Assembly: GCF_029395455.1 (NCBI RefSeq)
Contig: NZ_CP113916.1
Coordinates: forward strand, 1,054,001 to 1,118,000
DNA from: Lactobacillus sp. ESL0785
Lineage (GTDB): Bacteria > Bacillota > Bacilli > Lactobacillales > Lactobacillaceae
Length of the DNA stretch: 64,000 bases
Direction: 5' to 3'
Both the position numbers and the translations under genes were made by a program. The notes below the pieces were generated by a model. It had not been told where the DNA came from. It saw nothing but the letters and a program-made list of their open reading frames with translations, and made no database searches. This document shows positions 3,045-48,955 of the stretch, piece by piece; the stretch's first letter is position 1; every line of letters begins with the position of its first letter.

Positions 3045-3054
3045 TTTTTCTTCC

Positions 3055-22358: not shown

Positions 22359-22467
22359 TACTGCACCTCCAAAAAATACTTAGACTCGCCAATCGGGGTG
22401 CCTTTTTCAAAGTCTTCTAACTCCCGAAATGTGCGGTTGCAGATGTGGAGGTCTCCACAAATACAAC
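22359..22467 (-). ncRNA. Probable L21 leader (ribosomal protein autoregulatory RNA)
   Basis: Between the promoter and rplU the transcript has a roughly 109-nt leader. Its first stem is TGTGGAGAC/CTCCACA. A central element follows with AACCGCACATTTCGGG and the segment GGCACCCCGATTGGCGAGTC, and the end runs into the GGAGG of rplU. Position and layout match the known L21 leader class of Firmicutes. I have not compared it with a covariance model, so the class is inferred. Confidence 0.6.
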
Positions 22468-22600: not shown

Positions 22601-22644
22601 CATAATTCTTAATGCCCTTTACACAAGGCACTTAAAGAATTATG
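22601..22644. repeat. Imperfect inverted repeat upstream of the SLAP gene
   Basis: CATAATTCTT (22601-22610) and AAGAATTATG (22635-22644) are perfectly complementary, and an inner TGCC/GGCA (22613-22616, 22627-22630) extends the stem. No T-run follows, so it is not an obvious terminator. It lies 43 nt before the start of the first SLAP gene. It could be an operator or a 5' UTR hairpin. Confidence 0.6.
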
Positions 22645-22686
22645 ATGAATGCAAATTTATTATTAATAATTTTAATAAGGAAAAAA

Positions 22687-23658
22687 ATGCAAGAAAAAAA
22701 GACTAAGAATTTACTTAAACTTGCCGCTTCAGTCAGCTTGTTCACATTTGGCAGTATTATCTTTTCAAGTCAATTGGTGCACGCTGACAACACTAGCCAA
22801 GAACCTGAAATAATCGACTACGATAAATTCACGCCACTAGCATTGCCGGCAGGACAAGAGGAAGTTATCCCAACTAACACAGTATTAACTAAAAATTCTG
22901 AGACCGCTAAACTGAGTCTAGCTAATTGGCAAGACATGCCTGATGGCACTACTTTTGTTTGGGGTAGTAAACCAGCAACTATTATCAATGGCTTAGCTAC
23001 TGGCAGCGTTAACGTGACTTTACCAGATGGTACTTTTAAGTATACTTTGGTCAGAGTTAGAATTGCTGGGCAAAAACAGATCAAACTTAAACATGCTACC
23101 TATTTATTTAATGCTACTGGTAAACAGCTAAACAGCACAATTTTAGCAGCGGGTTCAATTGTCAATATTAACGGTACTAAAGACATTAAAGGCCATACTT
23201 TTTACCAGTTAAATAATCAATATTACCTACCACTAAAAACCTTTAAAGTTAAGCCTAAAGACCAACTTAAGGCTGCTAAGGGCACCAAACGCATCATGCA
23301 CAGTACCTACCTATATGATGCTAAAAGTCATCGAGCAAACGGTTTGCTGCTAAAGGCTGGTTCATACGTCAAAATTCAAAAAATCAAGGGAACTTTTGGA
23401 CAGCAAGCAAATATTCATTATGCTGGCGGTCGCTATTTTTACCTAATTGATAATAATTTTTATGTTCCACAAAGCAACATTAGTGGACGCGGAATTGAAT
23501 GGTCAGATCATGCCGCCACCCTGTATAACACTAAGGGTAAAAAAATCGGTAAAATACCAGCACACACACCATATAACACCTACGGTGATCCAATTAAGCT
23601 CAATGGTAAAGCCTACTACATTATCGGCAAAGGTAAAATGATTTCAGTGAAGTTTTAA
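22687..23658 (+). CDS. Secreted SLAP-domain cell-surface protein
   Basis: This is a roughly 323-residue exported protein. Residues 1-33 form a signal peptide (basic MQEKKTKN, hydrophobic core, cleavage near VHA-DN). From about residue 125 three repeated SLAP-type motifs follow, each with the AxYLYxxxGK...LxAGSxV pattern and a YYxxxxxxxYxP end (motifs begin KLKHATYLFN, KRIMHSTYLYD and WSDHAATLYN). SLAP domains bind cell-wall polymers non-covalently in lactobacilli. The N-terminal ~90 residues (EPEIIDYDKF...) have no recognised fold. The frame opens at 22642, but AAGG 6 nt before ATG 22687 and the signal peptide decide the start. It is followed 14 bp later by another SLAP-like gene. Confidence 0.82.
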   Translation: MQEKKTKNLLKLAASVSLFTFGSIIFSSQLVHADNTSQEPEIIDYDKFTPLALPAGQEEVIPTNTVLTKNSETAKLSLANWQDMPDGTTFVWGSKPATIINGLATGSVNVTLPDGTFKYTLVRVRIAGQKQIKLKHATYLFNATGKQLNSTILAAGSIVNINGTKDIKGHTFYQLNNQYYLPLKTFKVKPKDQLKAAKGTKRIMHSTYLYDAKSHRANGLLLKAGSYVKIQKIKGTFGQQANIHYAGGRYFYLIDNNFYVPQSNISGRGIEWSDHAATLYNTKGKKIGKIPAHTPYNTYGDPIKLNGKAYYIIGKGKMISVKF

Positions 23659-23672
23659 TAATGAGGCAAATA

Positions 23673-25118
23673 ATGAAATTAACTAAAAAATTAAACATTC
23701 TGCTAGCTGTCATGCTGCTTGGTAGTCCCTGTTTAACCATGATACAATCACAAAAAGTACAGGCTGTTAAAAAAACACCCAAAAATACGCTTGAAATAAT
23801 CGATAGTCCTTTCATTTATCAGGCAAATGGCAAACGTTACCGTTATTATGACAGCATCCCTGGTGTTACTCTTGATATTAATACTGACAGAAAAGGTTAC
23901 GCTCATTTAGATTGTGACAGTGATGATAACGAATTTCACTATACTGGTCAAACTGCTTTAATTAAAGGTAAAAAATATTACCGCATTGCTAAAAATGCTT
24001 ATATTAATGCTAAGTATGTGATTGGCGTTAATGGTAAAAACCTGCAAAAAGGTAAATTAATGCTCAACCATAATTCTAATATTTATCATCAAAATGGCAA
24101 AAAAACAGGAAAAACTTTAACTAAAGATACGTTAGTCACCTATGCTGATAGAAGAAAGACGACCACGAAAATTCCTAAGTATTTTTATTATATTAGTAAT
24201 CAACAGTATGGTTATTTGCCTACTCACAAAATCCACGGTAAAGATTACTATGCTTTAGGCAATAATCAATATATTAATGCCAAAAATATTGGCAGAATCA
24301 ACGGCACAGTTGCCCACTATAATGGCATCACAACTGCCGTCGTGACAGCAAATACTACCACCCAATATATTTCAAATATCGGCACCAATCATCAACTTAA
24401 AAAGGGACAAAAAGTTAAAATTGACCGGACTGTTACTCCATGGGCAGAAGATTTTGATGGTTACATCTACCACTTGCATGATTATCCTGATGAATATCTT
24501 GATCAAAGTCTGCTTAAGTTAAGAAATGATCCCCCCATCGCTGATTATAATGAAATGGCCTATCGAACTTTCTCCTCGACTTCAAACGCGCCAATTAAGC
24601 TCTATTCTAATCTAGGCACCGAACTTTCTAAGCCACTAACACCACTAAAAGATGAAGCTGTCAGCGCCGATGGTCTATTTTATCTTTGGAACAATAAGAC
24701 TCAAAAAGCAGAATTATTCTATCATTTATTCCGGCAAAACAATGATGTAATTCCTGCTTCTGATCCCGAACGAATGACTTTTAGTAACAGTTTCGTTAAA
24801 GCAGATGCAATTAAATTCACCAACAACTACATTACTTTGAAACCACTAAATAGTCCGCAAGATGCTCAAGCTGATCAAGTAACTGCAACAACAGCTGACA
24901 AAAAAGAATTGGCTCAATTATTTATGGCTGGACAAAAAAACCTAAATGCTATCGCTATTGATGCTAGCCTGAAGAATAACTATGAAAATGCCTTGGGAAT
25001 AGCAGCAGTAACTTTAAGATCAACTTCTGTTAGCCGCGGTGAAGTCAAAGAAGTTATCTGGCTAGTAAAAACAACTAAAAAGCAACTTCAGTCATTATAT
25101 TTTGAAGATTGGAGTTAA
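23673..25118 (+). CDS. Secreted SLAP-like cell-surface protein
   Basis: The 481-residue protein has a signal peptide (MKLTKKLNILLAVMLLGS, cleavage near VQA-VK). Repeated tracts resembling SLAP motifs follow: KGKKYYRIAKNAYINAKYVI, HGKDYYALGNNQYINAKNI and similar, each ending with an aromatic-rich YY-Y pattern. The C-terminal ~150 residues (from about PLTPLKDEAV) differ and I do not recognise them. I chose ATG 23673 because GAGG lies 6 nt upstream; the ATG at 23661 has no such site. It is co-directional with, and 14 bp after, the previous SLAP gene, so the two are probably one operon ended by the terminator at 25143-25170. It is likely wall-bound; no LPxTG motif is present. Confidence 0.72.
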   Translation: MKLTKKLNILLAVMLLGSPCLTMIQSQKVQAVKKTPKNTLEIIDSPFIYQANGKRYRYYDSIPGVTLDINTDRKGYAHLDCDSDDNEFHYTGQTALIKGKKYYRIAKNAYINAKYVIGVNGKNLQKGKLMLNHNSNIYHQNGKKTGKTLTKDTLVTYADRRKTTTKIPKYFYYISNQQYGYLPTHKIHGKDYYALGNNQYINAKNIGRINGTVAHYNGITTAVVTANTTTQYISNIGTNHQLKKGQKVKIDRTVTPWAEDFDGYIYHLHDYPDEYLDQSLLKLRNDPPIADYNEMAYRTFSSTSNAPIKLYSNLGTELSKPLTPLKDEAVSADGLFYLWNNKTQKAELFYHLFRQNNDVIPASDPERMTFSNSFVKADAIKFTNNYITLKPLNSPQDAQADQVTATTADKKELAQLFMAGQKNLNAIAIDASLKNNYENALGIAAVTLRSTSVSRGEVKEVIWLVKTTKKQLQSLYFEDWS

Positions 25119-27104: not shown

Positions 27105-28427
27105 TTATTCCGTCTTATATTCAATCATCTGGTTGCCTTCATACGCCGGTAAACCTTTTTCTGCACGATAGAGCGCACGCTCAAATGCTTGATAGCCTTT
27201 GCTGGAGCTAACTGCAAATTTCACCTGATATTTACTGGCAAATTCACTGATATTCCACGCACTATCATGAGCTGCAAATGCAGTTACTAAAATCACAATG
27301 TCCAAATCCTTAATTTGATTTTCCATTACCTTTTTCTTACCTTGAAAGGCATCAATCGGAATTGGAATTCCATGATACCGATTAACAATTCCCTCAAGCA
27401 CCGCTTCATTCTGATTGTCACCAACAGCAATTCCCACACGTTGGTAATGTAAGTCCATCTCTAACTTAATTAATTCAGCAGTTTCTTTAGCTACCTTAAC
27501 TTTCTTCTTTTTAACTGTTGTCGTAGTTTTAGGTTGCTCAACTTCATAAATCCATCGGATTTGAATAGCCTCAGCTGGATTTTTCTTCAAGCGAATATCG
27601 CCATCATACCATGCTAAGTCAACAATTGAGCCATCAACTAACTGGACATTATCTTCTTGCCAATGACTAGAATCAACCGGGAGCAACACAGATTTTCCCC
27701 GGATTCGTAACTTTTGGCCTTTGATATTACGACTTACTGCCAAGTGACCAATACGACCTTGCACAACAGCATATTTAAAGGTAGAAATTGAATCAACTTC
27801 ATTAGATGATAATTTACGAAAGCCGACAACCCGCAGAATTGTCGCTTCATAATTAGCATTGTTTTCCTCTGCCACTGCTTCAACAATGTCACCACTCTTT
27901 AAATTTAATGAATGAATTTGCGATTCTTTTAGAGTATAAACACGCTGATTATTACTATTGATTAAGTCACAGCCAGCAAGCAAGCGAATTACTGTATAGC
28001 GTTTTCCTTTGCGATAGTCACGCTTGGGTCTTTCCTTCGGCTTTACAGCTTGTTCAAAAATTTTTCTGTTAATTACCTCTTTAGTTGTGTTAGAAGCCTG
28101 AATTGCCTTTTCCAACTGACTTAGATTCTTACCATATTTGTTGCCAATCTTAGGAAAAAAAGTTAATTGATGAATTGCCGACAAAGAAGTATTCTTGGCT
28201 GCTGGATCACCCGGTGTTGCAATTAAGTCAGTTAAACCAGTCAAAAGCAACTTAACTTGCTTATCATTAACTTTAACTTCATTAGTGCGCGATATTGCAG
28301 CTGCCGGTTCACTTTCATTCGCCATCCCTAATATCATTTTAATTGCAGCCAGGCCATTACGCAGGCTCTTTTCATCACCAGCTGTGTTATTCAAAATTCT
28401 TTTTAAATTATTACGATAATCAAACAT
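27105..28427 (-). CDS. DUF2325 domain-containing protein
   Basis: This 440-residue cytoplasmic protein has a C-terminal DUF2325 domain (about 330-425). It shows QRVGIAVGDNQ, then NRYHGIPIPIDAFQGKKKV, LDIVILVTAFAAHDSAWN and VKFAVSSSKGYQAFERAL, following the family's pattern of an I-V-G-D loop and a H-D-xx-W segment. A basic linker (KPKERPKRDYRKGKRYTVIR) and a beta-rich middle precede it. The N-terminal ~130 residues are helical and unrecognised. The function is unknown; such proteins occur near mobile and repair genes elsewhere, but context here is uninformative. Confidence 0.7.
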   Translation of the reverse strand: MFDYRNNLKRILNNTAGDEKSLRNGLAAIKMILGMANESEPAAAISRTNEVKVNDKQVKLLLTGLTDLIATPGDPAAKNTSLSAIHQLTFFPKIGNKYGKNLSQLEKAIQASNTTKEVINRKIFEQAVKPKERPKRDYRKGKRYTVIRLLAGCDLINSNNQRVYTLKESQIHSLNLKSGDIVEAVAEENNANYEATILRVVGFRKLSSNEVDSISTFKYAVVQGRIGHLAVSRNIKGQKLRIRGKSVLLPVDSSHWQEDNVQLVDGSIVDLAWYDGDIRLKKNPAEAIQIRWIYEVEQPKTTTTVKKKKVKVAKETAELIKLEMDLHYQRVGIAVGDNQNEAVLEGIVNRYHGIPIPIDAFQGKKKVMENQIKDLDIVILVTAFAAHDSAWNISEFASKYQVKFAVSSSKGYQAFERALYRAEKGLPAYEGNQMIEYKTE

Positions 28428-28588: not shown

Positions 28589-31500
28589 CTACTTGATATT
28601 ATTTTTCTTAACTTCTCTATTTTTACCGACAATATAGAACTTCTTACCATGAATTGAAATACGTTCACCGTAAATTGTTATCTTGTGGTTCTTCTTCGTA
28701 ACCTTCTTTCCAACACGTTTACCATATTGATTGTAAGTATAAGCATTATGCTTTAACTTAACTCGTTTACCAATGACATTACCTAAAGCGATATAGTAAT
28801 TATCAGCAACAACTAAATATTTTTTGCCCTTAATTACTTTTGTACCAAAAGTATTAATAATTGAACCAGCTTTTAAGATAATACCATTAGCACGTTGACC
28901 CTGTTCATTGTAGAGATAGGCATGGTGCATAATCCTCTTAGTGACTGCATTTTCAGGTACCGTTATTGCCGTACCTAAACCAGCAGGACTTGCTTTATGC
29001 TTACCAGCAGTATTAGCTGCCTTGATAAATTGATTCTTACCAATAATATAGTATGACTTACCATGAATTGAAACCGTACTGCCGTATGTTCGAATTACAC
29101 GACCTATCTTAAGTAAACGCTTATTAGTTCTTTCACCATACTTATTATAAACATAAGCATTATGCTTAAGCTTTCTTTGCGTACTAATTACGTTCTCTAC
29201 TGCTATATAATACTTACCATTTTGAATTATGTAATACTTAGAACCATTAATTGTAGTAGTTCCATGAGTGGCAACAACTGAACCAGCTTTTAAAACAACC
29301 TTATTAGTGCGTTTGCCTTCTGCATTGTATAGGTAAGCATTGTGCTTCAAAGTTACATTAGTCGTTGTCTCTTCATCAGGTGTTTTTTCACCAGGTGCTG
29401 GAGTAGCAGGCGTCGAAGAAACTGGAGCCGAGTTTGAGATTGGGTAGGCATCAGCAACTTTCGCTACGTGTTCCGGACTAGTAATTTCTGTTAAGTCATT
29501 CAAAGCGGTATTTTTAGCAGTATCAACACCTGGTTTATCAGTAGCTTGATCAATTGTACCTTTATTGTCTTTACTGCCATTAGCAGTAGCAACTAACTTA
29601 TCAACCTCATCCTTTAAATGCTGCTTAGCTTCATCACTACAATTTAGATGATTAATCTTATCTTTAGCATTAGCTGCTTCATTAGTAATATCTTTCTTGG
29701 CCTGCTCTTTGGCTTTACTTAAGCTATCGGCACTGCTGGTTGCGCCACTAATACCTGCTTTGCCAGCATTATAAGCATCCTTGATTGCGTCCTGCTTGTT
29801 GCCGACATTTTCGCTATTGGTATCTGCACTATTAAGCTTATCGATCGCTTCTTTGGCACTATTAAGCTTTTGCTGAGCTTCACTAATTGCCTTGTCTTTA
29901 TCACTTTGACTTAAACCTGGTGTCTGATTGATTGCTCCTTCAGCTGCTGTTTCTTCAGCTTCAAGTTGCTGCTTACCAGTGTCTTTTTCGGCGCTGACGA
30001 CATTCGCTAAGCCGTTATTCTCGGCGGTGTCATACTTGCCGTCTTTGACCTGCTCAAGACTATTCAAAGCATCTTGCTCGGCCTTATCAATCGCTGCTGC
30101 TTCACTGCTGCCCTTGTCAACTCCTAAGTCTTGACGTGCCTTGTCGGCGGCTGCCGTTACGGCATCTTTGGCTGCCTGCTTAGCTTTTTGTTCTTGTTGA
30201 ACTGCACTATTGCCATTGGTTATCGGATCTAAAATACTACCATCATTACTGGTACATGCATCCTTGATCTTATTAATCGCATTAATGGCATCTTGCTTAG
30301 CTTGATTAACTTCAGCTACATTGCCTGCTTGGTCAATGGTACCAGTATCTGCTTTGTTCGCTTTGTCAACTTCTTGTTGAATGGCATCCTTGATTGCTTG
30401 CTTTTCGGCGTCTGTATAAGGCTGGCCATTCTGATGTGTCTTCAACTGATCAACTGCTTCATTGGCTGCTATACCAGCTGCACTTACGTCTTTCTTGGCC
30501 TGCTCTTTGGCTTTACTTAAGCTATCGGCACTGCTGGTTGCGCCACTAATACCTGCTTTGCCAGCATTATAAGCATCCTTGATTGCGTCCTGCTTGTTGC
30601 CGACATTTTCGCTATTGGTATCTGCACTATTAAGCTTATCGATCGCTTCTTTGGCACTATTAAGCTTTTGCTGAGCTTCACTAATTGCCTTGTCTTTATC
30701 ACTTTGACTTAAACCTGGTGTCTGATTGATTGCTCCTTCAGCTGCTGTTTCTTCAGCTTCAAGTTGCTGCTTACCAGTGTCTTTTTCGGCGCTGACGACA
30801 TTCGCTAAGCCGTTATTCTCGGCGGTGTCATACTTGCCGTCTTTGACCTGCTCAAGACTATTCAAAGCATCTTGCTCGGCCTTATCAATCGCTGCTGCTT
30901 CACTGCTGCCCTTGTCAACTCCTAAGTCTTGACGTGCCTTGTCGGCGGCTGCCGTTACGGCATCTTTGGCTGCCTGCTTAGCTTTTTGTTCTTGTTGAAC
31001 TGCACTATTGCCATTGGTTATCGGATCTAAAATACTACCATCATTACTGGTACATGCATCCTTGATCTTATTAATCGCATTAATGGCATCTTGCTTAGCT
31101 TGATTAACTTCAGCTACATTGCCTGCTTGGTCAATGGTACCAGTATCTGCTTTGTTCGCTTTGTCAACTTCTTGTTGAATGGCATCCTTGATTGCTTGCT
31201 TTTCGGCGTCTGTATAAGGCTGGCCATTCTGATGTGTCTTCAACTGATCAACTGCTTCATTGGCTGCTATACCAGCTGCACTTACGTCTTTCTTGGCCTG
31301 CTCTTTGGCTTTACTTAAGCTATCGGCACTGCTGGTTGCGCCACTAATACCTGCTTTGCCAGCATTATAAGCATCCTTGATTGCGTCCTGCTTGTTGCCG
31401 ACATTTTCGCTATTGGTATCTGCACTATTAAGCTTATCGATCGCTTCTTTGGCACTATTAAGCTTTTGCTGAGCTTCACTAATTGCCTTGTCTTTATCAC

Positions 31501-34500
31501 TTTGACTTAAACCTGGTGTCTGATTGATTGCTCCTTCAGCTGCTGTTTCTTCAGCTTCAAGTTGCTGCTTACCAGTGTCTTTTTCGGCGCTGACGACATT
31601 CGCTAAGCCGTTATTCTCGGCGGTGTCATACTTGCCGTCTTTGACCTGCTCAAGACTATTCAAAGCATCTTGCTCGGCCTTATCAATCGCTGCTGCTTCA
31701 CTGCTGCCCTTGTCAACTCCTAAGTCTTGACGTGCCTTGTCGGCGGCTGCCGTTACGGCATCTTTGGCTGCCTGCTTAGCTTTTTGTTCTTGTTGAACTG
31801 CACTATTGCCATTGGTTATCGGATCTAAAATACTACCATCATTACTGGTACATGCATCCTTGATCTTATTAATCGCATTAATGGCATCTTGCTTAGCTTG
31901 ATTAACTTCAGCTACATTGCCTGCTTGGTCAATGGTACCAGTATCTGCTTTGTTCGCTTTGTCAACTTCTTGTTGAATGGCATCCTTGATTGCTTGCTTT
32001 TCGGCGTCTGTATAAGGCTGGCCATTCTGATGTGTCTTCAACTGATCAACTGCTTCATTGGCTGCTATACCAGCTGCACTTACGTCTTTCTTGGCCTGCT
32101 CTTTGGCTTTACTTAAGCTATCGGCACTGCTGGTTGCGCCACTAATACCTGCTTTGCCAGCATTATAAGCATCCTTGATTGCGTCCTGCTTGTTGCCGAC
32201 ATTTTCGCTATTGGTATCTGCACTATTAAGCTTATCGATCGCTTCTTTGGCACTATTAAGCTTTTGCTGAGCTTCACTAATTGCCTTGTCTTTATCACTT
32301 TGACTTAAACCTGGTGTCTGATTGATTGCTCCTTCAGCTGCTGTTTCTTCAGCTTCAAGTTGCTGCTTACCAGTGTCTTTTTCGGCGCTGACGACATTCG
32401 CTAAGCCGTTATTCTCGGCGGTGTCATACTTGCCGTCTTTGACCTGCTCAAGACTATTCAAAGCATCTTGCTCGGCCTTATCAATCGCTGCTGCTTCACT
32501 GCTGCCCTTGTCAACTCCTAAGTCTTGACGTGCCTTGTCGGCGGCTGCCGTTACGGCATCTTTGGCTGCCTGCTTAGCTTTTTGTTCTTGTTGAACTGCA
32601 CTATTGCCATTGGTTATCGGATCTAAAATACTACCATCATTACTGGTACATGCATCCTTGATCTTATTAATCGCATTAATGGCATCTTGCTTAGCTTGAT
32701 TAACTTCAGCTACATTGCCTGCTTGGTCAATGGTACCAGTATCTGCTTTGTTCGCTTTGTCAACTTCTTGTTGAATGGCATCCTTGATTGCTTGCTTTTC
32801 GGCGTCTGTATAAGGCTGGCCATTCTGATGTGTCTTCAACTGATCAACTGCTTCATTGGCTGCTATACCAGCTGCACTTACGTCTTTCTTGGCCTGCTCT
32901 TTGGCTTTACTTAAGCTATCGGCACTGCTGGTTGCGCCACTAATACCTGCTTTGCCAGCATTATAAGCATCCTTGATTGCGTCCTGCTTGTTGCCGACAT
33001 TTTCGCTATTGGTATCTGCACTATTAAGCTTATCGATCGCTTCTTTGGCACTATTAAGCTTTTGCTGAGCTTCACTAATTGCCTTGTCTTTATCACTTTG
33101 ACTTAAACCTGGTGTCTGATTGATTGCTCCTTCAGCTGCTGTTTCTTCAGCTTCAAGTTGCTGCTTACCAGTGTCTTTTTCGGCGCTGACGACATTCGCT
33201 AAGCCGTTATTCTCGGCGGTGTCATACTTGCCGTCTTTGACCTGCTCAAGACTATTCAAAGCATCTTGCTCGGCCTTATCAATCGCTGCTGCTTCACTGC
33301 TGCCCTTGTCAACTCCTAAGTCTTGACGTGCCTTGTCGGCGGCTGCCGTTACGGCATCTTTGGCTGCCTGCTTAGCTTTTTGTTCTTGTTGAACTGCACT
33401 ATTGCCATTGGTTATCGGATCTAAAATACTACCATCATTACTGGTACATGCATCCTTGATCTTATTAATCGCATTAATGGCATCTTGCTTAGCTTGATTA
33501 ACTTCAGCTACATTGCCTGCTTGGTCAATGGTACCAGTATCTGCTTTGTTCGCTTTGTCAACTTCTTGTTGAATGGCATCCTTGATTGCTTGCTTTTCGG
33601 CGTCTGTATAAGGCTGGCCATTCTGATGTGTCTTCAACTGATCAACTGCTTCATTGGCTGCTATACCAGCTGCACTTACGTCTTTCTTGGCCTGCTCTTT
33701 GGCTTTACTTAAGCTATCGGCACTGCTGGTTGCGCCACTAATACCTGCTTTGCCAGCATTATAAGCATCCTTGATTGCGTCCTGCTTGTTGCCGACATTT
33801 TCGCTATTGGTATCTGCACTATTAAGCTTATCGATCGCTTCTTTGGCACTATTAAGCTTTTGCTGAGCTTCACTAATTGCCTTGTCTTTATCACTTTGAC
33901 TTAAACCTGGTGTCTGATTGATTGCTCCTTCAGCTGCTGTTTCTTCAGCTTCAAGTTGCTGCTTACCAGTGTCTTTTTCGGCGCTGACGACATTCGCTAA
34001 GCCGTTATTCTCGGCGGTGTCATACTTGCCGTCTTTGACCTGCTCAAGACTATTCAAAGCATCTTGCTCGGCCTTATCAATCGCTGCTGCTTCACTGCTG
34101 CCCTTGTCAACTCCTAAGTCTTGACGTGCCTTGTCGGCGGCTGCCGTTACGGCATCTTTGGCTGCCTGCTTAGCTTTTTGTTCTTGTTGAACTGCACTAT
34201 TGCCATTGGTTATCGGATCTAAAATACTACCATCATTACTGGTACATGCATCCTTGATCTTATTAATCGCATTAATGGCATCTTGCTTAGCTTGATTAAC
34301 TTCAGCTACATTGCCTGCTTGGTCAATGGTACCAGTATCTGCTTTGTTCGCTTTGTCAACTTCTTGTTGAATGGCATCCTTGATTGCTTGCTTTTCGGCG
34401 TCTGTATAAGGCTGGCCATTCTGATGTGTCTTCAACTGATCAACTGCTTCATTGGCTGCTATACCAGCTGCACTTACGTCTTTCTTGGCCTGCTCTTTGG

Positions 34501-37500
34501 CTTTACTTAAGCTATCGGCACTGCTGGTTGCGCCACTAATACCTGCTTTGCCAGCATTATAAGCATCCTTGATTGCGTCCTGCTTGTTGCCGACATTTTC
34601 GCTATTGGTATCTGCACTATTAAGCTTATCGATCGCTTCTTTGGCACTATTAAGCTTTTGCTGAGCTTCACTAATTGCCTTGTCTTTATCACTTTGACTT
34701 AAACCTGGTGTCTGATTGATTGCTCCTTCAGCTGCTGTTTCTTCAGCTTCAAGTTGCTGCTTACCAGTGTCTTTTTCGGCGCTGACGACATTCGCTAAGC
34801 CGTTATTCTCGGCGGTGTCATACTTGCCGTCTTTGACCTGCTCAAGACTATTCAAAGCATCTTGCTCGGCCTTATCAATCGCTGCTGCTTCACTGCTGCC
34901 CTTGTCAACTCCTAAGTCTTGACGTGCCTTGTCGGCGGCTGCCGTTACGGCATCTTTGGCTGCCTGCTTAGCTTTTTGTTCTTGTTGAACTGCACTATTG
35001 CCATTGGTTATCGGATCTAAAATACTACCATCATTACTGGTACATGCATCCTTGATCTTATTAATCGCATTAATGGCATCTTGCTTAGCTTGATTAACTT
35101 CAGCTACATTGCCTGCTTGGTCAATGGTACCAGTATCTGCTTTGTTCGCTTTGTCAACTTCTTGTTGAATGGCATCCTTGATTGCTTGCTTTTCGGCGTC
35201 TGTATAAGGCTGGCCATTCTGATGTGTCTTCAACTGATCAACTGCTTCATTGGCTGCTATACCAGCTGCACTTACGTCTTTCTTGGCCTGCTCTTTGGCT
35301 TTACTTAAGCTATCGGCACTGCTGGTTGCGCCACTAATACCTGCTTTGCCAGCATTATAAGCATCCTTGATTGCGTCCTGCTTGTTGCCGACATTTTCGC
35401 TATTGGTATCTGCACTATTAAGCTTATCGATCGCTTCTTTGGCACTATTAAGCTTTTGCTGAGCTTCACTAATTGCCTTGTCTTTATCACTTTGACTTAA
35501 ACCTGGTGTCTGATTGATTGCTCCTTCAGCTGCTGTTTCTTCAGCTTCAAGTTGCTGCTTACCAGTGTCTTTTTCGGCGCTGACGACATTCGCTAAGCCG
35601 TTATTCTCGGCGGTGTCATACTTGCCGTCTTTGACCTGCTCAAGACTATTCAAAGCATCTTGCTCGGCCTTATCAATCGCTGCTGCTTCACTGCTGCCCT
35701 TGTCAACTCCTAAGTCTTGACGTGCCTTGTCGGCGGCTGCCGTTACGGCATCTTTGGCTGCCTGCTTAGCTTTTTGTTCTTGTTGAACTGCACTATTGCC
35801 ATTGGTTATCGGATCTAAAATACTACCATCATTACTGGTACATGCATCCTTGATCTTATTAATCGCATTAATGGCATCTTGCTTAGCTTGATTAACTTCA
35901 GCTACATTGCCTGCTTGGTCAATGGTACCAGTATCTGCTTTGTTCGCTTTGTCAACTTCTTGTTGAATGGCATCCTTGATTGCTTGCTTTTCGGCGTCTG
36001 TATAAGGCTGGCCATTCTGATGTGTCTTCAACTGATCAACTGCTTCATTGGCTGCTATACCAGCTGCACTTACGTCTTTCTTGGCCTGCTCTTTGGCTTT
36101 ACTTAAGCTATCGGCACTGCTGGTTGCGCCACTAATACCTGCTTTGCCAGCATTATAAGCATCCTTGATTGCGTCCTGCTTGTTGCCGACATTTTCGCTA
36201 TTGGTATCTGCACTATTAAGCTTATCGATCGCTTCTTTGGCACTATTAAGCTTTTGCTGAGCTTCACTAATTGCCTTGTCTTTATCACTTTGACTTAAAC
36301 CTGGTGTCTGATTGATTGCTCCTTCAGCTGCTGTTTCTTCAGCTTCAAGTTGCTGCTTACCAGTGTCTTTTTCGGCGCTGACGACATTCGCTAAGCCGTT
36401 ATTCTCGGCGGTGTCATACTTGCCGTCTTTGACCTGCTCAAGACTATTCAAAGCATCTTGCTCGGCCTTATCAATCGCTGCTGCTTCACTGCTGCCCTTG
36501 TCAACTCCTAAGTCTTGACGTGCCTTGTCGGCGGCTGCCGTTACGGCATCTTTGGCTGCCTGCTTAGCTTTTTGTTCTTGTTGAACTGCACTATTGCCAT
36601 TGGTTATCGGATCTAAAATACTACCATCATTACTGGTACATGCATCCTTGATCTTATTAATCGCATTAATGGCATCTTGCTTAGCTTGATTAACTTCAGC
36701 TACATTGCCTGCTTGGTCAATGGTACCAGTATCTGCTTTGTTCGCTTTGTCAACTTCTTGTTGAATGGCATCCTTGATTGCTTGCTTTTCGGCGTCTGTA
36801 TAAGGCTGGCCATTCTGATGTGTCTTCAACTGATCAACTGCTTCATTGGCTGCTATACCAGCTGCACTTACGTCTTTCTTGGCCTGCTCTTTGGCTTTAC
36901 TTAAGCTATCGGCACTGCTGGTTGCGCCACTAATACCTGCTTTGCCAGCATTATAAGCATCCTTGATTGCGTCCTGCTTGTTGCCGACATTTTCGCTATT
37001 GGTATCTGCACTATTAAGCTTATCGATCGCTTCTTTGGCACTATTAAGCTTTTGCTGAGCTTCACTAATTGCCTTGTCTTTATCACTTTGACTTAAACCT
37101 GGTGTCTGATTGATTGCTCCTTCAGCTGCTGTTTCTTCAGCTTCAAGTTGCTGCTTACCAGTGTCTTTTTCGGCGCTGACGACATTCGCTAAGCCGTTAT
37201 TCTCGGCGGTGTCATACTTGCCGTCTTTGACCTGCTCAAGACTATTCAAAGCATCTTGCTCGGCCTTATCAATCGCTGCTGCTTCACTGCTGCCCTTGTC
37301 AACTCCTAAGTCTTGACGTGCCTTGTCGGCGGCTGCCGTTACGGCATCTTTGGCTGCCTGCTTAGCTTTTTGTTCTTGTTGAACTGCACTATTGCCATTG
37401 GTTATCGGATCTAAAATACTACCATCATTACTGGTACATGCATCCTTGATCTTATTAATCGCATTAATGGCATCTTGCTTAGCTTGATTAACTTCAGCTA

Positions 37501-40500
37501 CATTGCCTGCTTGGTCAATGGTACCAGTATCTGCTTTGTTCGCTTTGTCAACTTCTTGTTGAATGGCATCCTTGATTGCTTGCTTTTCGGCGTCTGTATA
37601 AGGCTGGCCATTCTGATGTGTCTTCAACTGATCAACTGCTTCATTGGCTGCTATACCAGCTGCACTTACGTCTTTCTTGGCCTGCTCTTTGGCATCATTT
37701 ACAAGAACTGAATCATTATTCAAAGCATTATTATCATTACTTGAAGTACCTTCACTATCAGCCGCAATTGTAGCTAATTGATCATTTAAAGTACCACTAA
37801 CTGAACCATCATTTGTAGCTTTCTCAGCATCATCTTTACTAATACTATCTTTATCTTTAGTTGAATTGTCGATTGCTTCATTGGCCGCAGTAACATCCTT
37901 ATCAATTTGATTCTTCAAAGCTTCCTTTTCATCATCAGTATAATGCGTTAAACCATTAATCTTGTTTTTAGCAGCTTCGGCAGCAGCTTGAACTGCACCC
38001 TTCGCAATTGCTTGCTGTGCCTTTTCAGCATTATGCTTAATTTCATCAGGTGTGGAACCAATAACTACCTTATTGTTATTAAACGCATCATCAAGCTTAG
38101 AACTATCGGCGCCCATAGGTAACTTTTCCTTAGCAGCTTGATAAATCGTTGCTAAATCTTTTTCAGCCTGTTCTTTAGCATCAGCAAGTTGACAAGCTGG
38201 ATCATTCTTAATTGCCTCTTTATCAGCATCACTTGTACCAGTAGCATCAGCTAAGATTTTATCAATTGCAGCATCACGAGCACCACTAACCGTATCATCA
38301 GGATCAACTGTACCATTCGTAATTGTACCTTGATCACCGTTAGCTGCAGTAACATCATTAGCAATTACATTGTTCAGAACATTCTTTTCTTCATTTGAAT
38401 ATGGCTTGTTAGCAGAATGTTGCAGATTAGAAATCTTGTTTTTAGCATAAGTAGCTGCTTCATTAACCGCTGCCTTATCAATATTCTTGATTGCAGCAGT
38501 CGAATCTTGAAGGGCATCATATGATAGTCCTGACAACTTATCAAGTTCATGCTTATAAGCTTGATCAAGTTCACCATCAGGTGTATAGGCATCACCTAAT
38601 TTTTCCTTAGCAGCATTATATGCAGCATCAATCTTATTTTTAGCATTTTGACGAGCGTCAGCAATCGCACCAGCATTAGCACTATCAGCTGCTGCAGCAA
38701 TGTCAGCAATGTTATTTTTCTTAGCGGTATCAATCTTATCTTGATTACCAATAGTATCATTATCAGTTGGAATTATCTTATTAATGTTAGCAATTGTCTT
38801 GTCAGCATTTTGCTTAACTCGCTCTTTATAATCTTGTTTTTGCTGGTCAGTTAGACCATCAGTGCCATCAATTGCATTGTTAGCAGCATTCTCAGCATCC
38901 TCAACTTCTTTGATTGCCTTGAGCTTGTTCAAAGCTGTCAAACCAGCATCATAAGTATCAGTTGCATCCTTGATTGAAGAATTATGACCATCTTTAGACT
39001 TATCAAGTTTAGCAATACTATTATTGACTGTATCGATTAAATCCGCGTACTTAGCCTTTTGTTCGGGTGATAAATTACCTTCAAGATCCTGCCACTTATT
39101 ATTCAAATCACCATGAGCATTATCAACTTCATTACCAAACCATGGGAAGTTAGTGCTATCAGTATTTTCTTCAAGTACCTGAGCAACCTCTTTTTCATAT
39201 CCTTGTTTAATTATATCTGCTTGGTGCGCATAAATATCTGCTGGAACATTAGGATTATGATGGTTATTATTGTTTGGATCTTTATCTGGATATAATGGAT
39301 CCTTATGAGCATCCGCAAGCATTTTAGCTGCATCTGCATACAAAGCTTGTAACTTGGCCTTAGCATCCTGCTTTTGTTGATCAGTTAACTGCGAACGATC
39401 AATAATTGCTTCAGCTTCGCGTTCTTGCTCAAGCAAGTCACGATCAATATCGTTACCATACTGATTACTCTTAGCCTGATCAACTAAATCTTGAATCTTA
39501 TTCTCGGTATTTTCCTTAATACCATCTGGAGAATTTGGTCCCGCTGTATCAGTAGCACCAGCAATATCTTGCTCGGCTTGGTTAACCAGCTTATCAACAG
39601 CAGTTGAATCAACTCCATCTTGCTTCTCAGCTTCATCGGCAGTGTTTTGAATATCAGCAATATCTTGCCGCTTATTAGAAGCTAATTTGGCATTATTAAT
39701 AATTTGATCAATTGCTTTTTCACCAGCAGTTTCATCATCACCAACTTGACTCTTACCAGTATTATAATCATCAGTAGTTGCATCAGCTGGTAATTTTTCA
39801 CCAAGAATGTTATTAGCAGCTGCTTGACGAGCTTGTTCAATCTGCTTCTTGTAAGCACTAATTTCATCTGAGGTTAAACCATTTGGATTATCCTTATTTT
39901 GAGCAAGAGCATCTAAATCCTTGTCTTTATCAACAGCATAGTCATTAAGTTTACTTGTCTGCTTATTCTTATCATTAAGCAACTTGGATGGCAATAAAGC
40001 ATTGTCAATAGCAGTTTCCCACTTTTGTTCTGTTTGATTCAAATATTCTTGATCTGTCATGCTTGGATCATGATTAGTCATATCTAAGCCAAGGATATCG
40101 TTTTCACCATCATGCTCAACTTGATCAGCAGCTGCTTGAGCAGCTGCAATTTCAGCTGGGGTTAATGTAGCATAATCTGGATTATCCTTGTTGACCTTGT
40201 CTTCAACATCTTTAGCATGTTGCTTAAGCTTTTCGACAGCAGTCTCTTTTTCATCCCACTTATCTGTCAGCTTACCGAGTTTATCAATACCAGCTTGAGC
40301 AGCTTCTTCCATGTTGCTAATCGCATCACTCTTATCTGTCCGGTGTTGGTTAATTTCATTAGTAGTATCATTACTAATTGAATTAATTTGATCATACAAA
40401 TGTTTCTTTTGCTGCTCAGTTAAGGTTGGATGATTCTTAATATAATCAGCAGCCTTTTGGTTAGCAGTAGTTACTGCAGCTGCAACTTTATCTAAGTCAG

Positions 40501-43500
40501 CTTTTTGAACTTCATCTTTATTGATTTCCGCATCATCTAAAGCAAAGGCTAAATTACCATTACTTTCGGCAGTAGCAACACCAGCTTGCGTTGTTGCGTT
40601 ATCAACAGCATCTTCAGCACCAGCTAAATCATGAGTAACTGCTCCAATCAAAGCATCAGCTTGCGTGGAACTCAATTTACCAGCTAACTTATCAGCAGTA
40701 ATTCGATCTGTTCGCTGCTTAGCATTAGCCTCTAAACGATTCTTAGCATCTGTCTTAGCTTGCTGCAAGGCATTATTTTTAGCAGTAGATACAATATCAT
40801 TAAAATGATTCTTAGTATTATTAACAATACTGTTAATTGAATCTTTATCTTTAGCTTGGTTTACTTGATATTTTCCACCATTGTATTTTTCAGATGCAGC
40901 ACTATTAATGCTATTAATCGCATCTTGCTTTTGCTGATCAGTTAAAGTGGAATCACTATTAATCTTATCAACAGCATCTTGACGAGCTTGCTCAATTTGC
41001 TTATTGGCAGCATTTTTAGCATTTTGCAGCTTAGCATCTTCTACTGCCTTGTTAATTTCAGCGATACCTGTATCACGGTCTGAATTAATGGCGGTAACAT
41101 TATCATCACCTGTAACTGAATTAACATATTTATCATGAGCATCTTTAGCTTGTTGTTCATACTTAGCTTTTTCAGTATCGCTCAGATCACCTAAATCTTG
41201 AATGTCATCAACTGCACCCGCAGCACCAGTTGTACTATCGCCATTTAACGTATGATCAAGAGCATTAATTGCATCTTGTTTAGCTGTATTAATTTCTTTA
41301 TTGTGGTCAGAAGAAGCTGTATTTTGAATACCATCAAGTTTTCCTTTATAAACTGTCACGGTATTTGTAACGTCACTTGGCGTTTGATCATTAGTGATTT
41401 CTTCTTTACCACTTGTTAGTAATTCATCAACCTGATCACGATAACCACCATTAACAGGCAATTGATTCTTAATCTTGTCTGCATACTCCTGCAGTTCTTT
41501 CTTACCTTTAGCCTGAGAAGAAGCTAAGAATGCTGGCTTCTTGGCATTGGTAACATCCGTATTAGCTTGATTAGTTGCACCAGTAATATCAGCTGAATTT
41601 TTAGCATTATTAACACTAGTGTGACCCTTTGATCTCGCATCTTCAATATCTTGCTTAGCCTGATCAAATTTTGGCTTAACCTCAGCTTGCTCATCATCGT
41701 CTAAACTATTAAATTCATTAGTTAAAGCAGTTTGGGCATCATTACAAATTTTGTCAATTTTTTTATTAGCTTGATCCTTTAAGTCGTTAAGATATTGCTT
41801 ACGAGCATCAGCCTCAGCATCTGTAATTGCTTGCTTACCATAATCTCTTTGATTATTCGCGTCAGCAATAGTTCCTGCAGCGTCAACCCTGTTTTTCGCA
41901 GCATCACGAGCTTGATTAATGGCTTGATGAGCATTCTGTTTTTCTTGATCATTTAAATCGGATTGATCAATGCGAGCATTAGCGTCTTTGGCAGCTTGAT
42001 CTAATGCGGTCTTATCATTTGTCTTGGTTTGATCAAGACCTTGAGCATTTTCAAGAACTTGATCCATATTGTCACAACCAGTTTGGGCTTCTTTACCAAC
42101 CTGATCAGTTGTTGCTGGTGTAGGATTATTAATTTTACCTAAAGCATCATCATAAGCGTTTTGAACATCTTGTTTTAAGGCAGCCAAACTATCTGAGTCA
42201 ATGTTTTGTAAACCATCAAGAGCTTGATCAACCTTAGATTTTTCTTGGTCAAGCTTATTCTTAGCAGCATTCTGAGCATCCTCTAAATCAGCAGTATTAG
42301 CTACATCTTGGATGTTGTTTTGACCTATAGCAGAAGCAGAAGTGATATCTTTCGGTGTTTTAGCACCATTAACTGCAGTATGTGCGGCAGCCAATTCTTT
42401 ATCAACATCGCCTTTAAGCTTAGCTTTTTCATCAGAACCAAGATTACTTAAGTCATCAATATGTTTTTTAGCTTTGCCAGCAAGCGTATCCAAATCATTA
42501 TTAGCTTGATCACGATCATTATCTAAAGTTGTATTATCAATAGTAGCAACCACGCCATCCATCTGCTTTCCTGCAGTATTCTGAGCAGATGTAATTTCAT
42601 CTTGGTTTTTAGCATTATTAATGTTCTTAGCACCATCAAGATAGTAATTATCAATTTGGTCGTCCATCGACTTTTGCTGATCTGGTGTTATCTTACCGTC
42701 TTTAGCAGCTTGATCAACAATCGCTTTATCAGTATCACGTTTTTGCTGTAAAGCATTGATAGCTTGAGACTTTTTCGCCTCAAGATCAGCTTCATCAGCA
42801 TCAGCATTCATGTTATTTGCACCGGTTTCTTCAGCTGAAGAAACAGCATCCTGATTTGTAGCGCCATTAATAGCATTTACAGCAGCTTTGTAATCAGCTT
42901 CAATTTTATTGATAATAGCAGTTTTCTTACTTTGATCGACAGCAGTATCATCATAAGCATTAACTCGTTTCTCAGCCTGTTGCTTAGCTACAGCTAAAGC
43001 TCCAAGTGCAGTTTGCCGAGCTACTTTAAGTTCATTAGTATGTGTATTATTTACAGTATTAGCATTAGCTATAATATCATTCAAATGATCAATAGCAGTT
43101 GTCTTATTAGTATCAACAGCATCATCAGCACCATTTAAAATAGTACCTTCATCTTGTTTAGCGGTGTTATTCGCACTAGTAATTAAGTCTTGACGTTCTT
43201 GATCCGTTAAATTTGGATACTTAGTTTTATCATTAAGATCGTTGATTACATCTTGACGCTTTTGTTCAACGTCATTGATAGCTTGTTGCTTTCTATCCTT
43301 ATTAACTGCATCTATTAGGAAATTATTAAGCGCATCGATACCATCATTCAATGCAGCGCCAACACCAGTTAGATCTTTGGCTGCATCAACTTTATCCTGT
43401 GATCCTGTCTTATCTGAACTATGAATCAGACCTTGAGCCTTCTGCTTAGCAGCAGCTAATTCATCACCAGTTAAAGTTGACAACTTACCAAGTGCATCTT

Positions 43501-46500
43501 CGACTTCTTTTTCTTTATCGGCTAACTGTTTATCAGCACTATGTTGAGCTGCTGCCAAAATATTTTCTTTAGCTTTTTCTTCAGCTTGGGCAATCTTGGC
43601 AGAATTATCATTTGCAGAAAGACCACCATCCGAAATTTTGTCAATTGTACCAGTCTGATCAGCTGTTGCATCATTAGCAGCGGCATCAATAGCAGCAGTA
43701 TCACCAGCAACAATATCCTTAGCATCTTGAGCATAGCCATTGATCGCAGCCTTAGCAGCAGCCTTCTTGATCTTGTTAATAGCTCTGTTTTTACGATTAT
43801 TAATGTCCTCTGGATTATCAGAACCATAAATTGAACTAGTATCATCCTTGTCAGGAGTTGGGTTTAAGGCCGCATTCTTAGCATCATCAATTGCTTTATT
43901 ATATGCGTCCTTTTGAATTTGCGGGATATTCGCATTGTTAACTTGATTATGAGCCTCTTCAGCAGCCTTTTGAATGTCATCATTAGCAGGTGTATCTTCA
44001 ACAATCCTGTCAATTGTATCTTTACCCTTTTGAGCAGCATCTTCAATTGGTGTCTTGCCAGTTGTATCTTTAGGAGCCTTAAAAATGTCCTTAGAAGCAG
44101 AAGCTAAAACTTTATCAATATTTGGCTTACTACCTGAATTAGCATTAGCTTTATTGGTAGCATAATTTTCTAAATCTTTAAGGGCATCAAGACGATGCTG
44201 AACATCATCGAGTAAGTCTTGAGCCGTTTGATGAGCTTGTTCAGTTGTCTTACCATCTTGACCTTTATCAATAGCAGCAGCATCTGCTGGATCACCATTA
44301 GTTACTTGATCTTGATCCTTAGCAATTGCGGCAGCTTCAGCCAACTCATCTTGTAGACCCTTAAAATCATTAGCAATATCAGGGTCATCACCTAAGCCAT
44401 GATTATTTAGTAACTTTTTAACAGTATCTAATTCGTCATTTAACTTACTCTGTTGTTCATTGATATTGTCCTTTAAGCCTTTTTTATAAGCTTTAACAGC
44501 ATTATCAATGGCAGTTATACCAACTTGATCATCAGGAACATTAGCCCGGTTATCATCAGTTGCGTCAGCACCAGTCTTGCTATCTTGCAAATTGCTATCA
44601 TTAGTTTCATTTTGAATGACTTTTTCTTGAGCAGCAGAGGCAGCTATAATTTGGTCCTTAGCGTTAGGATATGCAGTACCGATGGTATCACAATAATTAC
44701 GTAATGCTGATAAGGCACGAGCCTTCCGATATGCCGTGTCTACTTGCTTATGAGCGGCAATGATAGCTGCACTATTGTTAAATTCTGTGCCATCACCTAC
44801 GTAACCAAGTTTATCAATAACATCAAGATCACTAGCAGATGTAATTGCGCTGTTACAGATTGAACTCTGCTCACTTGACAAGTTTAGCTTATTAAGATCA
44901 GTCTTAGCAGGTGAATCATAATTTTTAAGTGCATTTTGAACAGCTGTTTGGTAATCGTTTAAGATACTTTTCTTGGCAGTTGTATCTGCCATAGTAGCAG
45001 CATCTGGTGTGGCAGCAGCAGTAATGGCATGAATTAAAGGTAGTGTTGCAGCAGTTGGTATCACACTATCAGGGATACCAGCATCCTTTAAATCCTTCTT
45101 AGCAGCTTGCAAATAATATTGTGTATCGCTGGAAGCATACGTTTTAGCTGCCATAGTAACCATATTATTAAATTTATCAAGAGCTGCTTGCTTAGCCTTG
45201 TTAATATCAGCAGTACTACTATTCGGATTATAAATTGAATCTGTATCAGACGCTGTAGTTGGATTCCTTAACGCATTATTCTTAATCGCATTAATTGCAG
45301 CTTCATAAGTTTGATAATTACGTTGATGTTCTGGCGTTTGATCTGGGTCAGCCTCAGCATCAGCCTTAACTTTCGCAATTGCATCATTTGCAGCTTTATT
45401 AATTGCTGCATCAGCAGCTGCTTGCACATCAGTAACGTTAAGAATGTTTAAATCAAGCACTGTAGGTTTAACTTCAGGATCATAGCCAATAAAGTTAGCA
45501 GTTGGTGTTAATTCAATAGCATCACCCTTTTCCAAGCCAGAAGTAAATTCAGCAGGTAACGTAAAACTAAATGTACCATCTGGGTTAACTTTAGCCGCAA
45601 AAGTCATCTTTTGGGGCAAACTTGGATCACCATTAGGGTTCTGAGGATGAGTGCCTTTAATTATGTGATTACTTAAATCTGATAAATCAGTATCCATTGT
45701 ACATAAATCTGTCATGCCATATGGATCATCTGTCAGAGTTGGATCAGTCCAATTCTTCTTAGGTACCCAATTACCAGCATTGTCTTTATGTACAATACTA
45801 GCTGTAATATATGCATAAGTACCTCCAGGTAAGATCTTACCAAACAAGCCGTCACTATTTGGGCCATCAAGCTGATCAGTATAATTTTCAATTGAACCAG
45901 TTACTATTCTAGAGCCATCATCTTCAGGCTGAGTAATAACCTTAGCATTATCAATATTTAAGAAGCCTTCTTGGTTTGCAGAGACAAATGCAATATCATT
46001 ATAGCCAGGGCTATTGGGATCCATAAACGCTGCTTCAATAATACCAGCAAAAATTTCATCAAAAGTCTTCCCAACCAAACTATCAAGTTGGCTAGCAATT
46101 GCACCAAGCATAGCACTAATCTGTGGATTCTTCTTAAGAGCTTCAGCAAGTTCTGGCGTTAGTTTTCGTTTACCATTTAACAATTCAATATTATCAACCA
46201 AAATCAAATTATGAAGACCATCTGGATTAGTATGATGTACTACTAATTTATGAAACGGTGGTAACGAAATCAGACTACCACCAAGATTCAAATTCTGCCG
46301 TACATTCTGAATAGTAATTGGATGATCACCAATAATTGAAGTTTTGTGACTTGGATCATCATTTAAATGGTCATCTAATGTTAATTTAGTCGGATTATTA
46401 ACTACCAAATTACCAGTAACATCAACTAAAGTAATAGTTCCTGTACCACCAGTAGTCGCTCCTTTAATATCCTTACCACTTGGATCAACAAGTTTAATAT

Positions 46501-48409: not shown

Positions 48410-48460
48410 ACATTTCTTTCCTTTTGTAACACTAAATTTCAACAAGTATATACAGTAATA

Positions 48461-48489
48461 AGCATAGGTGGTCATGGAATGAATGTAAA
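48461..48489 (-). promoter_or_regulatory. Candidate promoter of the giant adhesin gene
   Basis: On the minus strand TTTACA (48484-48489) and TATGCT (48461-48466) are separated by 17 nt, giving a leader of about 45 nt before ATG 48409. The remaining 48,500-48,800 stretch is AT-rich and shows no gene that I can support. Confidence 0.5.
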
Positions 48490-48811
48490 CGTTAGAAAAT
48501 AACATCTATGTATAGGAAAAATAATGTTTCTTTCACAATAAATTTTAATGCCACTGACAATATAATAAATTATTGTAAATTATTGCAGTAATAGCATTTT
48601 CTATACGAGCCCACAATAATTATTTAGTTTTAATTAATGAATATTAAGTAATAAAAAATAATAAAAGTAATTTTTGATTTTTAAGGAAAGCTAACTGTTA
48701 ATTCTATATATTTTCAAATAAATATATTTAATTTTTCATTAACGGGCAGATTGGTTAACGTGCCACAATCTAGGAGCCAAATAAAAAAGTACTGAAAAGC
48801 AAATTTTTTTA

Positions 48812-48840: not shown

Positions 48841-48876
48841 AGTTAATGTTCTGTGAGGAACAAGCAAACATACAAT

Positions 48877-48950: not shown

Positions 48951-48955
48951 TTCAT

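Follow-up and report, generated by a model that had tools for sequence, protein, structure and literature searches.

Giant surface proteins with YSIRK, DUF1542 and SLAP domains have been described in the Firm-5 group by Ellegaard et al. (2015; PMC4449606), where the section devoted to them gives lengths of 1,500-4,600 amino acids (aa), up to five copies of DUF1542 and two SLAP domains. Surface proteins in which highly identical tandem repeats of the stalk vary in number are known as Periscope Proteins (Whelan et al. 2021, PMC8201768; 2022 review, PMC9704523). Among lactobacilli, the cmbA macrosatellite of Limosilactobacillus reuteri consists of identical 288-bp repeats, 8 in one strain and 11 in another, with a length of 2.3-3.2 kb, and the same report notes that the polymerase chain reaction, through ladder artefacts, and short reads miscount such arrays (2026, PMC13339910). 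Here we describe a stretch of 64,000 nucleotides of Lactobacillus sp. ESL0785 (contig NZ_CP113916.1, positions 1,054,001 to 1,118,000; the whole stretch is called the window), in which the gene for a giant surface protein carries ten identical copies of a single stalk unit that have lost the codon adaptation of the rest of the gene. The host is a Lactobacillus apparently related to the social-bee-gut group. The only named relatives of the unit in the genome collection are from Lactobacillus sp. ESL0701 and ESL0679, which we infer to be bee-gut strains from among the ESL-numbered stingless-bee isolates of PMC10128065.

An exact tandem array in a giant surface protein gene

Positions 29691-37693 of the window, 8,003 bp, consist of ten units of 798 bp followed by 23 bp, with zero mismatches, all ten units being one and the same string. 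When the sequence is compared with itself at a lag of 798, 7,205 consecutive positions pass without a mismatch, placing a 95% upper bound of 4.2e-4 on the divergence between neighbouring copies (rule of three). The unit is in frame, 798 being 3 x 266, and its 266 residues include 19 serines as against 50 alanines. The original prediction, made from the letters and open reading frames (ORFs) alone, had reported ten near-perfect units of 798 bp in a 19.8-kb adhesin gene. Both the periodicity and the number of units are borne out, the base-by-base alignment of units that it had proposed turns near-perfect into perfect, at least as assembled, and the gene length fits the 19,821 bp counted from our preferred start. 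The secondary-frame ORFs to which it had also pointed recur unchanged because the units are identical, and so add nothing beyond that identity.

The expansion is limited to one type of module, as had also been proposed. Over the whole window, at all lags of 60-5999 bases, self-matches of at least 90% over 120 bases occur only at multiples of 798, and the 20 protein matches with E below 1e-5 between the unit and the stalk before the array have identities of only 21-33%. A search of the window genome (G000, a single contig of 1,694,003 bases) with the unit at E <= 0.001 gave 11 matches, ten of which are the array and the eleventh a 41%-identical module 3' of it.

The listed ORF runs from 28589 to 48505 on the minus strand. 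We place the start at the ATG at 48409 because the relatives start at MLGKNNF, which is residue 33 here, and because a Shine-Dalgarno-like sequence lies upstream. The features of the gene, with the basis for each, are as follows.

28589-48409, minus strand: gene of the giant surface protein, of 6,606 aa with the preferred start and 6,638 aa for the ORF from 48505; ORF list and starts of relatives
48416-48424, minus strand: Shine-Dalgarno-like AAAGGAAAG before the ATG at 48409; read by eye
48284-48358, minus strand: YSIRK-type signal peptide; PF04650, E 2e-9, and NCBIfam TIGR01168
45476-47725, minus strand: tentative N-terminal tip domain, strand-rich, ORF residues 261-1010; structure model and Foldseek
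37694-45448, minus strand: diverged helical stalk of DUF1542 and GA-type modules, ORF residues about 1020-3604; Pfam
29691-37693, minus strand: perfect tandem array, 10 x 798 bp + 23 bp, in which unit 1 of the protein is 36896-37693 and unit 10 is 29714-30511; self-comparison
36896-37693, minus strand: first unit, 266 aa, nine helices, with DUF1542 matches; Pfam and structure model
29691-29713, minus strand: 23-bp partial copy at the 3' end of the array, the same as the first 23 bp of each unit; sequence comparison
29477-29713, minus strand: final DUF1542 module, diverged, 3' of the array, with 36% identity to residues 2-82 of the unit; comparison and Pfam
28592-29368, minus strand: C-terminal SLAP region, presumed wall anchor; PF03217 (SlpA), four stretches, E 1.9e-54, outer bounds by eye

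DUF1542 scored above its cut-off in all four pieces of the protein that were scanned, in one of them narrowly (24.7 vs 24.3 bits). An assignment to the LEA epithelial adhesins (NF033647) was rejected, with only 24.9 bits over residues 46-220 against an NCBIfam cut-off of 200 bits.

The AlphaFold2 model of the unit, built on an alignment of 11 rows, has nine helices and a mean predicted local distance difference test score (pLDDT) of 94.5. From the length of DUF1542 and the number of helices it would seem to comprise three helical bundles in a row. The tip was modelled as 750 residues from four sequences and is strand-rich; in a Foldseek search, ranks 1-4 of 216 are structures of the serine-rich repeat protein (SRRP) of L. 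reuteri, with E-values of 5e-4 to 3.5e-2, the best having a probability of 1.00, E 5e-4 and TMt 0.64. The SRRP entries 5nxk and 5ny0 we take to be the binding regions of that protein. By sequence, a search of the PDB gave no match for the tip and only a weak match of the unit to N-WASP (E 0.017). The architecture predicted overall is of an adhesin tip, a helical stalk and a SLAP anchor. The YSIRK signal would export the protein and the four SLAP stretches would presumably hold it to the wall, with the beta-solenoid-like tip, which presumably binds glycan, spaced from the wall by the long alpha-helical stalk.

Relatives of the unit and the origin of the array

A single unit is present in the positional orthologue from Lactobacillus sp. 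ESL0701. With nine units removed, residues 33-4244 of the window protein align end to end with residues 1-4300 of the ESL0701 protein (48.5% identity over 4,454 columns), and together these suggest that nine in-frame copies were probably gained in the window gene, a single unit being the likely ancestral state. A second unit start was looked for after the unit in the ESL0701 draft assembly and was not found, so this unit is unlike a collapsed array. Orthology was checked with a C-terminal tree, in which the window gene lies in clade A together with the clade-A genes of ESL0701 and of another species (genome G051) with support of 100/99, and by synteny. In both genomes the gene is flanked on one side by DUF2325 and YitT genes and on the other by a SAP gene, tRNA-Arg(TCT) and a gene of the beta-lactamase family. 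Identity between window and ESL0701 is 82-89% for four of the flanking genes as against 48.5% for the giant protein, which thus evolves much faster than its surroundings. Two of the synteny markers are placed as follows.

27105-28427, minus strand: DUF2325 protein, 82.5% identical to the ESL0701 neighbour; comparison
48876-48951, plus strand: tRNA-Arg(TCT), which also adjoins the ESL0701 gene; RNA annotation

When 75 genomes of the genus were searched with the unit, 19 (the window's genome counted) had a match at E <= 1e-5. Among the relatives compared, one recognisable unit is present in seven genes in five genomes (G049, G051, G052, G054 and G055), three of which have a weaker neighbour module at 36-40% identity. 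A further gene of G052 has a full copy and a partial one, with 84% identity over 190 residues, a gene of G050 has two adjacent diverged units and one of G053 a partial unit.

A second exact array was found in G051, likewise a single contig, where 15,428 bases of the gene for a 6,899-aa protein repeat exactly, corresponding to 19.63 x 786 bp.

G051:C1:695908-711335 (L016, L017): exact 786-bp array, 19.6 copies; self-comparison

Its unit is 58% identical to that of the window. The gene falls outside clade A in the C-terminal tree, the clade-A gene of G051 has one unit, and the ends of the two arrays are in different register, all of which indicates that the module was amplified at least twice, in different paralogues. 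Amplification would then be a recurrent property of the homologous module, with at least two separate events behind it. Compared with the clade-B gene of ESL0701, the G051 array unit is 44-72% identical, the next module can hardly be aligned and from residue 6412 to the C-terminus the identity is 81-98%, a pattern suggesting either fast evolution or replacement of the amplified unit. Between the stretch aligning with the window tip and the start of the G051 array lie about 165 residues, and most of the diverged stalk of the other relatives is missing there.

We consider it probable that the window gene encodes a giant SLAP-anchored fibrillar protein in which one stalk module became ten identical in-frame copies by recombination or slippage, and in which the same process homogenises the copies. 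Unequal homologous recombination (or replication slippage) would have multiplied the single module, with the same process continuing to keep the copies identical. Units would be added and removed in this way in living cells, each one lengthening the stalk, and the length of the stalk presumably matters for attachment. The original prediction of recent amplification or homogenisation, or both, gains support from the one-unit ESL0701 orthologue and from the end-to-end alignment of the collapsed protein; its proposal that the number of copies changes without breaking the frame holds as a mechanism and not as an established fact, the comparison having covered one genome per species. The same 23-bp stretch stands at each end of the array; the duplication may have started from it as a short homology, or it may just as well be what remains of an array end. 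Of nine genes searched for an A[KR]..A[KQ] start within some 60 residues downstream of the unit, two have one, namely that of the window and the gene of G052 already noted for its additional partial copy. A mobile or plasmid origin of the unit was rejected, with no match to it among 72,556 plasmid records and no relative of it encoded in any of 280 pattern-matching stretches of viral contigs.

Four points weigh against this account. The copy number and the perfect identity rest on a single-contig assembly of one strain, and an assembly or polishing artefact would mean that the real units differ in number, up or down, or slightly in sequence. The ESL-numbered stingless-bee gut isolates were, according to the methods in PMC10128065 (2023), assembled with Flye from Oxford Nanopore reads filtered at 7 kb and polished with Racon and, using short reads, with Pilon. 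Polishing with short reads could mask rare differences between units, so that the perfect identity could partly stem from it, and older assemblies are argued to have undercounted the cmbA array (PMC13339910). The single contig, the unique colinear flanks, the intact frame and the presence of the same kind of array in a second species make a gross artefact unlikely, however, and we regard an explanation of this kind as very improbable. The second point is that the synonymous sites of the unit are unlike those of ordinary modules, which argues against a unit just now copied from a neighbour. They also differ from those of the unamplified homologues, which suggests a homogenised sequence with its own history, beyond a few fresh copies of an ordinary module. 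Thirdly, the unit gave no significant Foldseek match in the PDB, the best of 66 (E <= 10) being 4kjm with E 0.62 and TMq 0.22, a giant adhesin-like helical domain of staphylococci known as Ebh. Finally, the model of the tip is tentative, with a mean pLDDT of 62.9 from the four sequences.

Several other repetitive or SLAP-bearing loci were seen. A paralogue of 3,174 aa at G000:C1:496065-497297 (L035) has a related N-terminal domain and a SLAP-like end, and is without a match to the unit at E <= 0.001. In G050, at C1:1556000-1561000 (L025), dense short repeats with periods of 66, 120 and 186 bp in a serine-rich frame adjoin a relative of the giant gene. In the window itself, two small adjacent SLAP-domain proteins, one with a Rib domain, are encoded at 22642-25118 on the plus strand, and a ribosomal protein L21 leader (RF00559) lies at 22372-22448 on the minus strand.

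Loss of codon adaptation within the arrays

The codon adaptation seen elsewhere in each gene is gone from the arrays of the window and of G051, and all eight unamplified units that were scored have kept that of their own genes. In the window gene the GC content at four-fold sites (GC4) is 0.410 in the unit as against 0.157 in the rest, where codon use is like that of ribosomal proteins (0.152); a genome sample of 94 ORFs gives 0.313, and none of 173 segments of 266 codons from the rest of the gene reaches the value of the unit. The corresponding values for G051 are 0.528 in the unit, 0.188 in the rest, 0.162 in ribosomal proteins and 0.386 in 102 sampled ORFs, with none of 63 segments reaching the unit. 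The unamplified units are mostly near their own genes in GC4, with partial exceptions in which the unit is reached by few segments: the two units of G050 (1/50 and 0/50), G054b (3/166) and G053 (12/147).

A codon-optimality score that sets ribosomal-protein against genome usage gave -0.091 for the window unit, which is the level of the genome, and -0.001 for the rest of the gene, where the lowest of 186 segments is at -0.079; in G051 the unit scores -0.206 and the rest -0.018. None of the eight unamplified units departs from its own gene by more than 0.04; they come from seven genes with a single copy and from the G052 duplicate, the G000 table serving for every one, and G050 and G053 were left out. 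Within its genome neither array is extreme, since 52 of 88 sampled genes for the window and 21 of 90 for G051 have scores equally low or lower. Off-optimum codon use is also seen in a near-perfect Rib array at another place in the window genome (-0.184 vs -0.031 for the rest). A second surface protein of that genome, of about 1,975 aa, at G000:C1:362017-363204 (L049), has 4.6 near-identical Rib repeats of 240 bp (98.6%) that are likewise off-optimum.

The shift is concentrated at four-fold sites. There C/(C+T) is 34/63 in the window unit vs 141/1118 in the rest (odds ratio (OR) 8.1, p 6e-14) and 43/69 vs 75/441 in G051 (OR 8.1, p 3e-14). The two-fold pyrimidine sites hardly move, at 20/72 vs 187/1131 in the window (OR 1.9, p 0.02) and 13/64 vs 98/531 in G051 (OR 1.1, p 0.73). 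Four-fold G rises in the G051 unit and not in that of the window. At positions where the array unit shares its residue with two or more of nine unamplified homologous units, the two G052 copies included, third-base T falls from 42 to 20 and C rises from 12 to 30 in the window unit (80 positions), and in the G051 unit T falls from 43.5 to 15 and C rises from 11.7 to 32 (81 positions). Of 65 residues common to the two arrays, only 17 have the same third base, so the shifts are at mostly different sites. All serines are encoded by AGY in both units (TCN 0/19 in the window and 0/18 in G051), in contrast to the rest of the genes, where TCN accounts for 110/208 and 72/126 of them.

To set these two arrays among others, proteins matching Rib, MucBP, SHIRT or SasG_E were surveyed, only repetitive-looking ones being chosen, which makes the survey small and biased to Rib and MucBP. 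Genomes with matches numbered 10/121 and at least 30/397 for Rib, at least 69/151 for MucBP and 3/398 each for SHIRT and SasG_E; a search for SSSPR-51 gave 0/151, but the control gave no match either, so this is no evidence of absence. Frames below 500 aa, genes with no detectable tandem array, repeated gene starts, arrays with fewer than 40 four-fold sites, rests with fewer than 100 and 'diverged' arrays more than 90% identical were dropped. The mean change in GC4 was +0.108 in 12 near-perfect arrays, nine of them with a rise, as against +0.003 in 19 diverged arrays, of which 10 showed one, with a one-sided p of 0.012, or 0.045 without the two arrays that suggested the trend. Four-fold T changed by -0.145 in the near-perfect arrays (10/12 negative) and by -0.035 in the diverged ones (14/19 negative), with a two-sided p of 0.027, or 0.10 without window and G051. 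These p values are nominal, several measures having been tried, and a general codon shift in near-perfect arrays is suggestive only.

Among the possible causes, we give a little under an even chance to the array being old and under lasting concerted evolution, its turnover by intragenic recombination weakening or overriding selection for optimal codons. The same odds ratio of 8.1 at the four-fold sites of both arrays, the fall of T and rise of C at mostly different shared residues, and the off-optimum scores of both array units, as against the unamplified units that stay with their genes, are consistent with this, although a unit rewritten before its amplification would look the same. Its generality is weak, the four-fold T result of the survey losing strength once window and G051 are left out. 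On a more specific formulation, homogenised arrays in codon-adapted genes would have a synonymous regime of their own, with four-fold optimal codons eroded, UCN serines lost and two-fold codons kept, arising separately in the two species; this we offer tentatively, and as rather doubtful.

Selection for the rewritten codons themselves, with slow translation through identical neighbouring domains aiding export or folding, seems unlikely. It would account for the all-AGY serines of both units and for the G051 unit falling below simulations with genome codons (z -2.8). The window unit, however, is only at genome level (z -0.9), with more than half of the background genes as low or lower (the 52 of 88 above), and its Ile, Leu and Arg codons are on the optimal side (z +3.2); the G051 unit is itself matched or undercut by the 21 of 90 genes given for that genome.

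It is quite unlikely that the unit was imported from an organism of higher GC and then amplified. The GC of the unit is 45.2% vs 37.4% upstream, and the G051 comparison, with its unit at 44-72%, the hardly alignable next module and 81-98% from there to the C-terminus, would fit a replacement. On the other hand, the identity of the window unit to ESL0701, 0.54-0.57, is inside the range of the flanks (0.37-0.69), the two-fold sites are not GC-rich and the third bases are not common to the two arrays.

That GC-biased gene conversion raised the GC of the unit during homogenisation is decidedly improbable, and as sole cause it was rejected. The existence of such conversion in bacteria is disputed (PMC4450053, PMC8153448). 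GC4 is up in both units, away from the pattern of ribosomal proteins and beyond the level sampled for the genome, and the survey trend in GC4 is in the same direction even without window and G051. Biased conversion should ignore codon degeneracy, however, yet the two-fold pyrimidine sites hardly move, so it is insufficient alone, and import from a GC-rich donor fails likewise. Four-fold G is not raised in the window unit, and in six other genomes with a near-perfect array, the background being sampled over 20-40 kb in each, the GC4 of the array does not exceed background in five and does so slightly in G673. The arrays L052 (G149), L053 (G059) and L069 (G210) oppose the GC trend.

Three other candidates were rejected: avoidance of mRNA structure, the units being slightly more structured than synonymous recodings (z -2.0 and -1.6); general avoidance of U, two-fold T being largely kept; and translational optimisation, the shift running away from ribosomal-protein codons.

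Significance and comparison with known systems

What is new here is the codon de-adaptation of the array relative to the rest of the gene, in both window and G051. A literature search, in which subscription journals were thinly covered, gave nothing among the matches listed on exact arrays in Firm-5 giants or on codon de-adaptation in exact arrays. The contrast within one gene between the array and its codon-adapted rest, with eight unamplified units as controls, offers a way to study the effect of continual homogenisation on synonymous sites. If the effect is real, turnover of an array would leave a footprint in codon use by which long-lived, continually homogenised arrays could be told from fresh ones; the reason would be either that recombination weakens codon selection or that slow codons are of advantage where identical domains stand side by side. 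The amplification of the same helical block at least twice, in different paralogues, may mean that the block or its position in the stalk invites amplification. The locus would also place a Periscope-like architecture in an apparently bee-associated commensal lineage which seems to have cultured relatives, where variation in stalk length could be addressed in the natural host and with no need of a pathogen.

Several described proteins share parts of this architecture. The tip as modelled has the fold of the L. reuteri SRRP structures 5nxk and 5ny0, but is only 12-14% identical to them, and the stalk of the window protein is helical and not serine-rich. The staphylococcal 4kjm domain is the top Foldseek match of the unit, at an E-value (0.62) that is not significant. 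Giant1-5 of Apilactobacillus kunkeei (2026) are, in the parts of PMC12863079 that describe them, likewise bee-associated with an N-terminal beta-solenoid, and Giant1-3 have alpha-helical repeat rods; their repeats are highly imperfect, however, and their C-terminal domain is DUF5776 in place of SLAP. The nearest case found in lactobacilli is cmbA, which also has perfectly identical intragenic tandem repeats in an adhesin gene. Its units are of 288 bp vs 798 bp and its arrays of 2.3-3.2 kb vs 8.0 kb, and CmbA is described as a cell-wall-anchored mucus adhesin (PMC13339910).

The Firm-5 giants have the same YSIRK N-terminal signal, DUF1542 middle and C-terminal SLAP domains, occur as several paralogues and belong to a bee-gut Lactobacillus group. 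The window protein differs from them in its 6,606 aa, its four SLAP stretches and its perfect 10-unit array, identical internal arrays not being mentioned in the section of PMC4449606 on these proteins. With the Periscope Proteins, as they are set out in the passages of PMC8201768 and PMC9704523 that define them, it has in common a predicted surface location, a putative N-terminal functional domain, a presumed C-terminal anchor and identical stalk repeats, and three-helix bundles are among the folds listed there. The listed repeats are of about 50-165 residues, whereas the unit here is a nine-helix block of 266 residues and the anchor is SLAP. One of their features, long and highly identical tandem repeats in a surface-protein gene, is present as ten exact copies of 798 bp. 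By analogy, the window protein resembles a Periscope Protein in the way it would work; we stop short of counting it as an established member, since these proteins are defined by variation in repeat number and the difference seen is only one between species.

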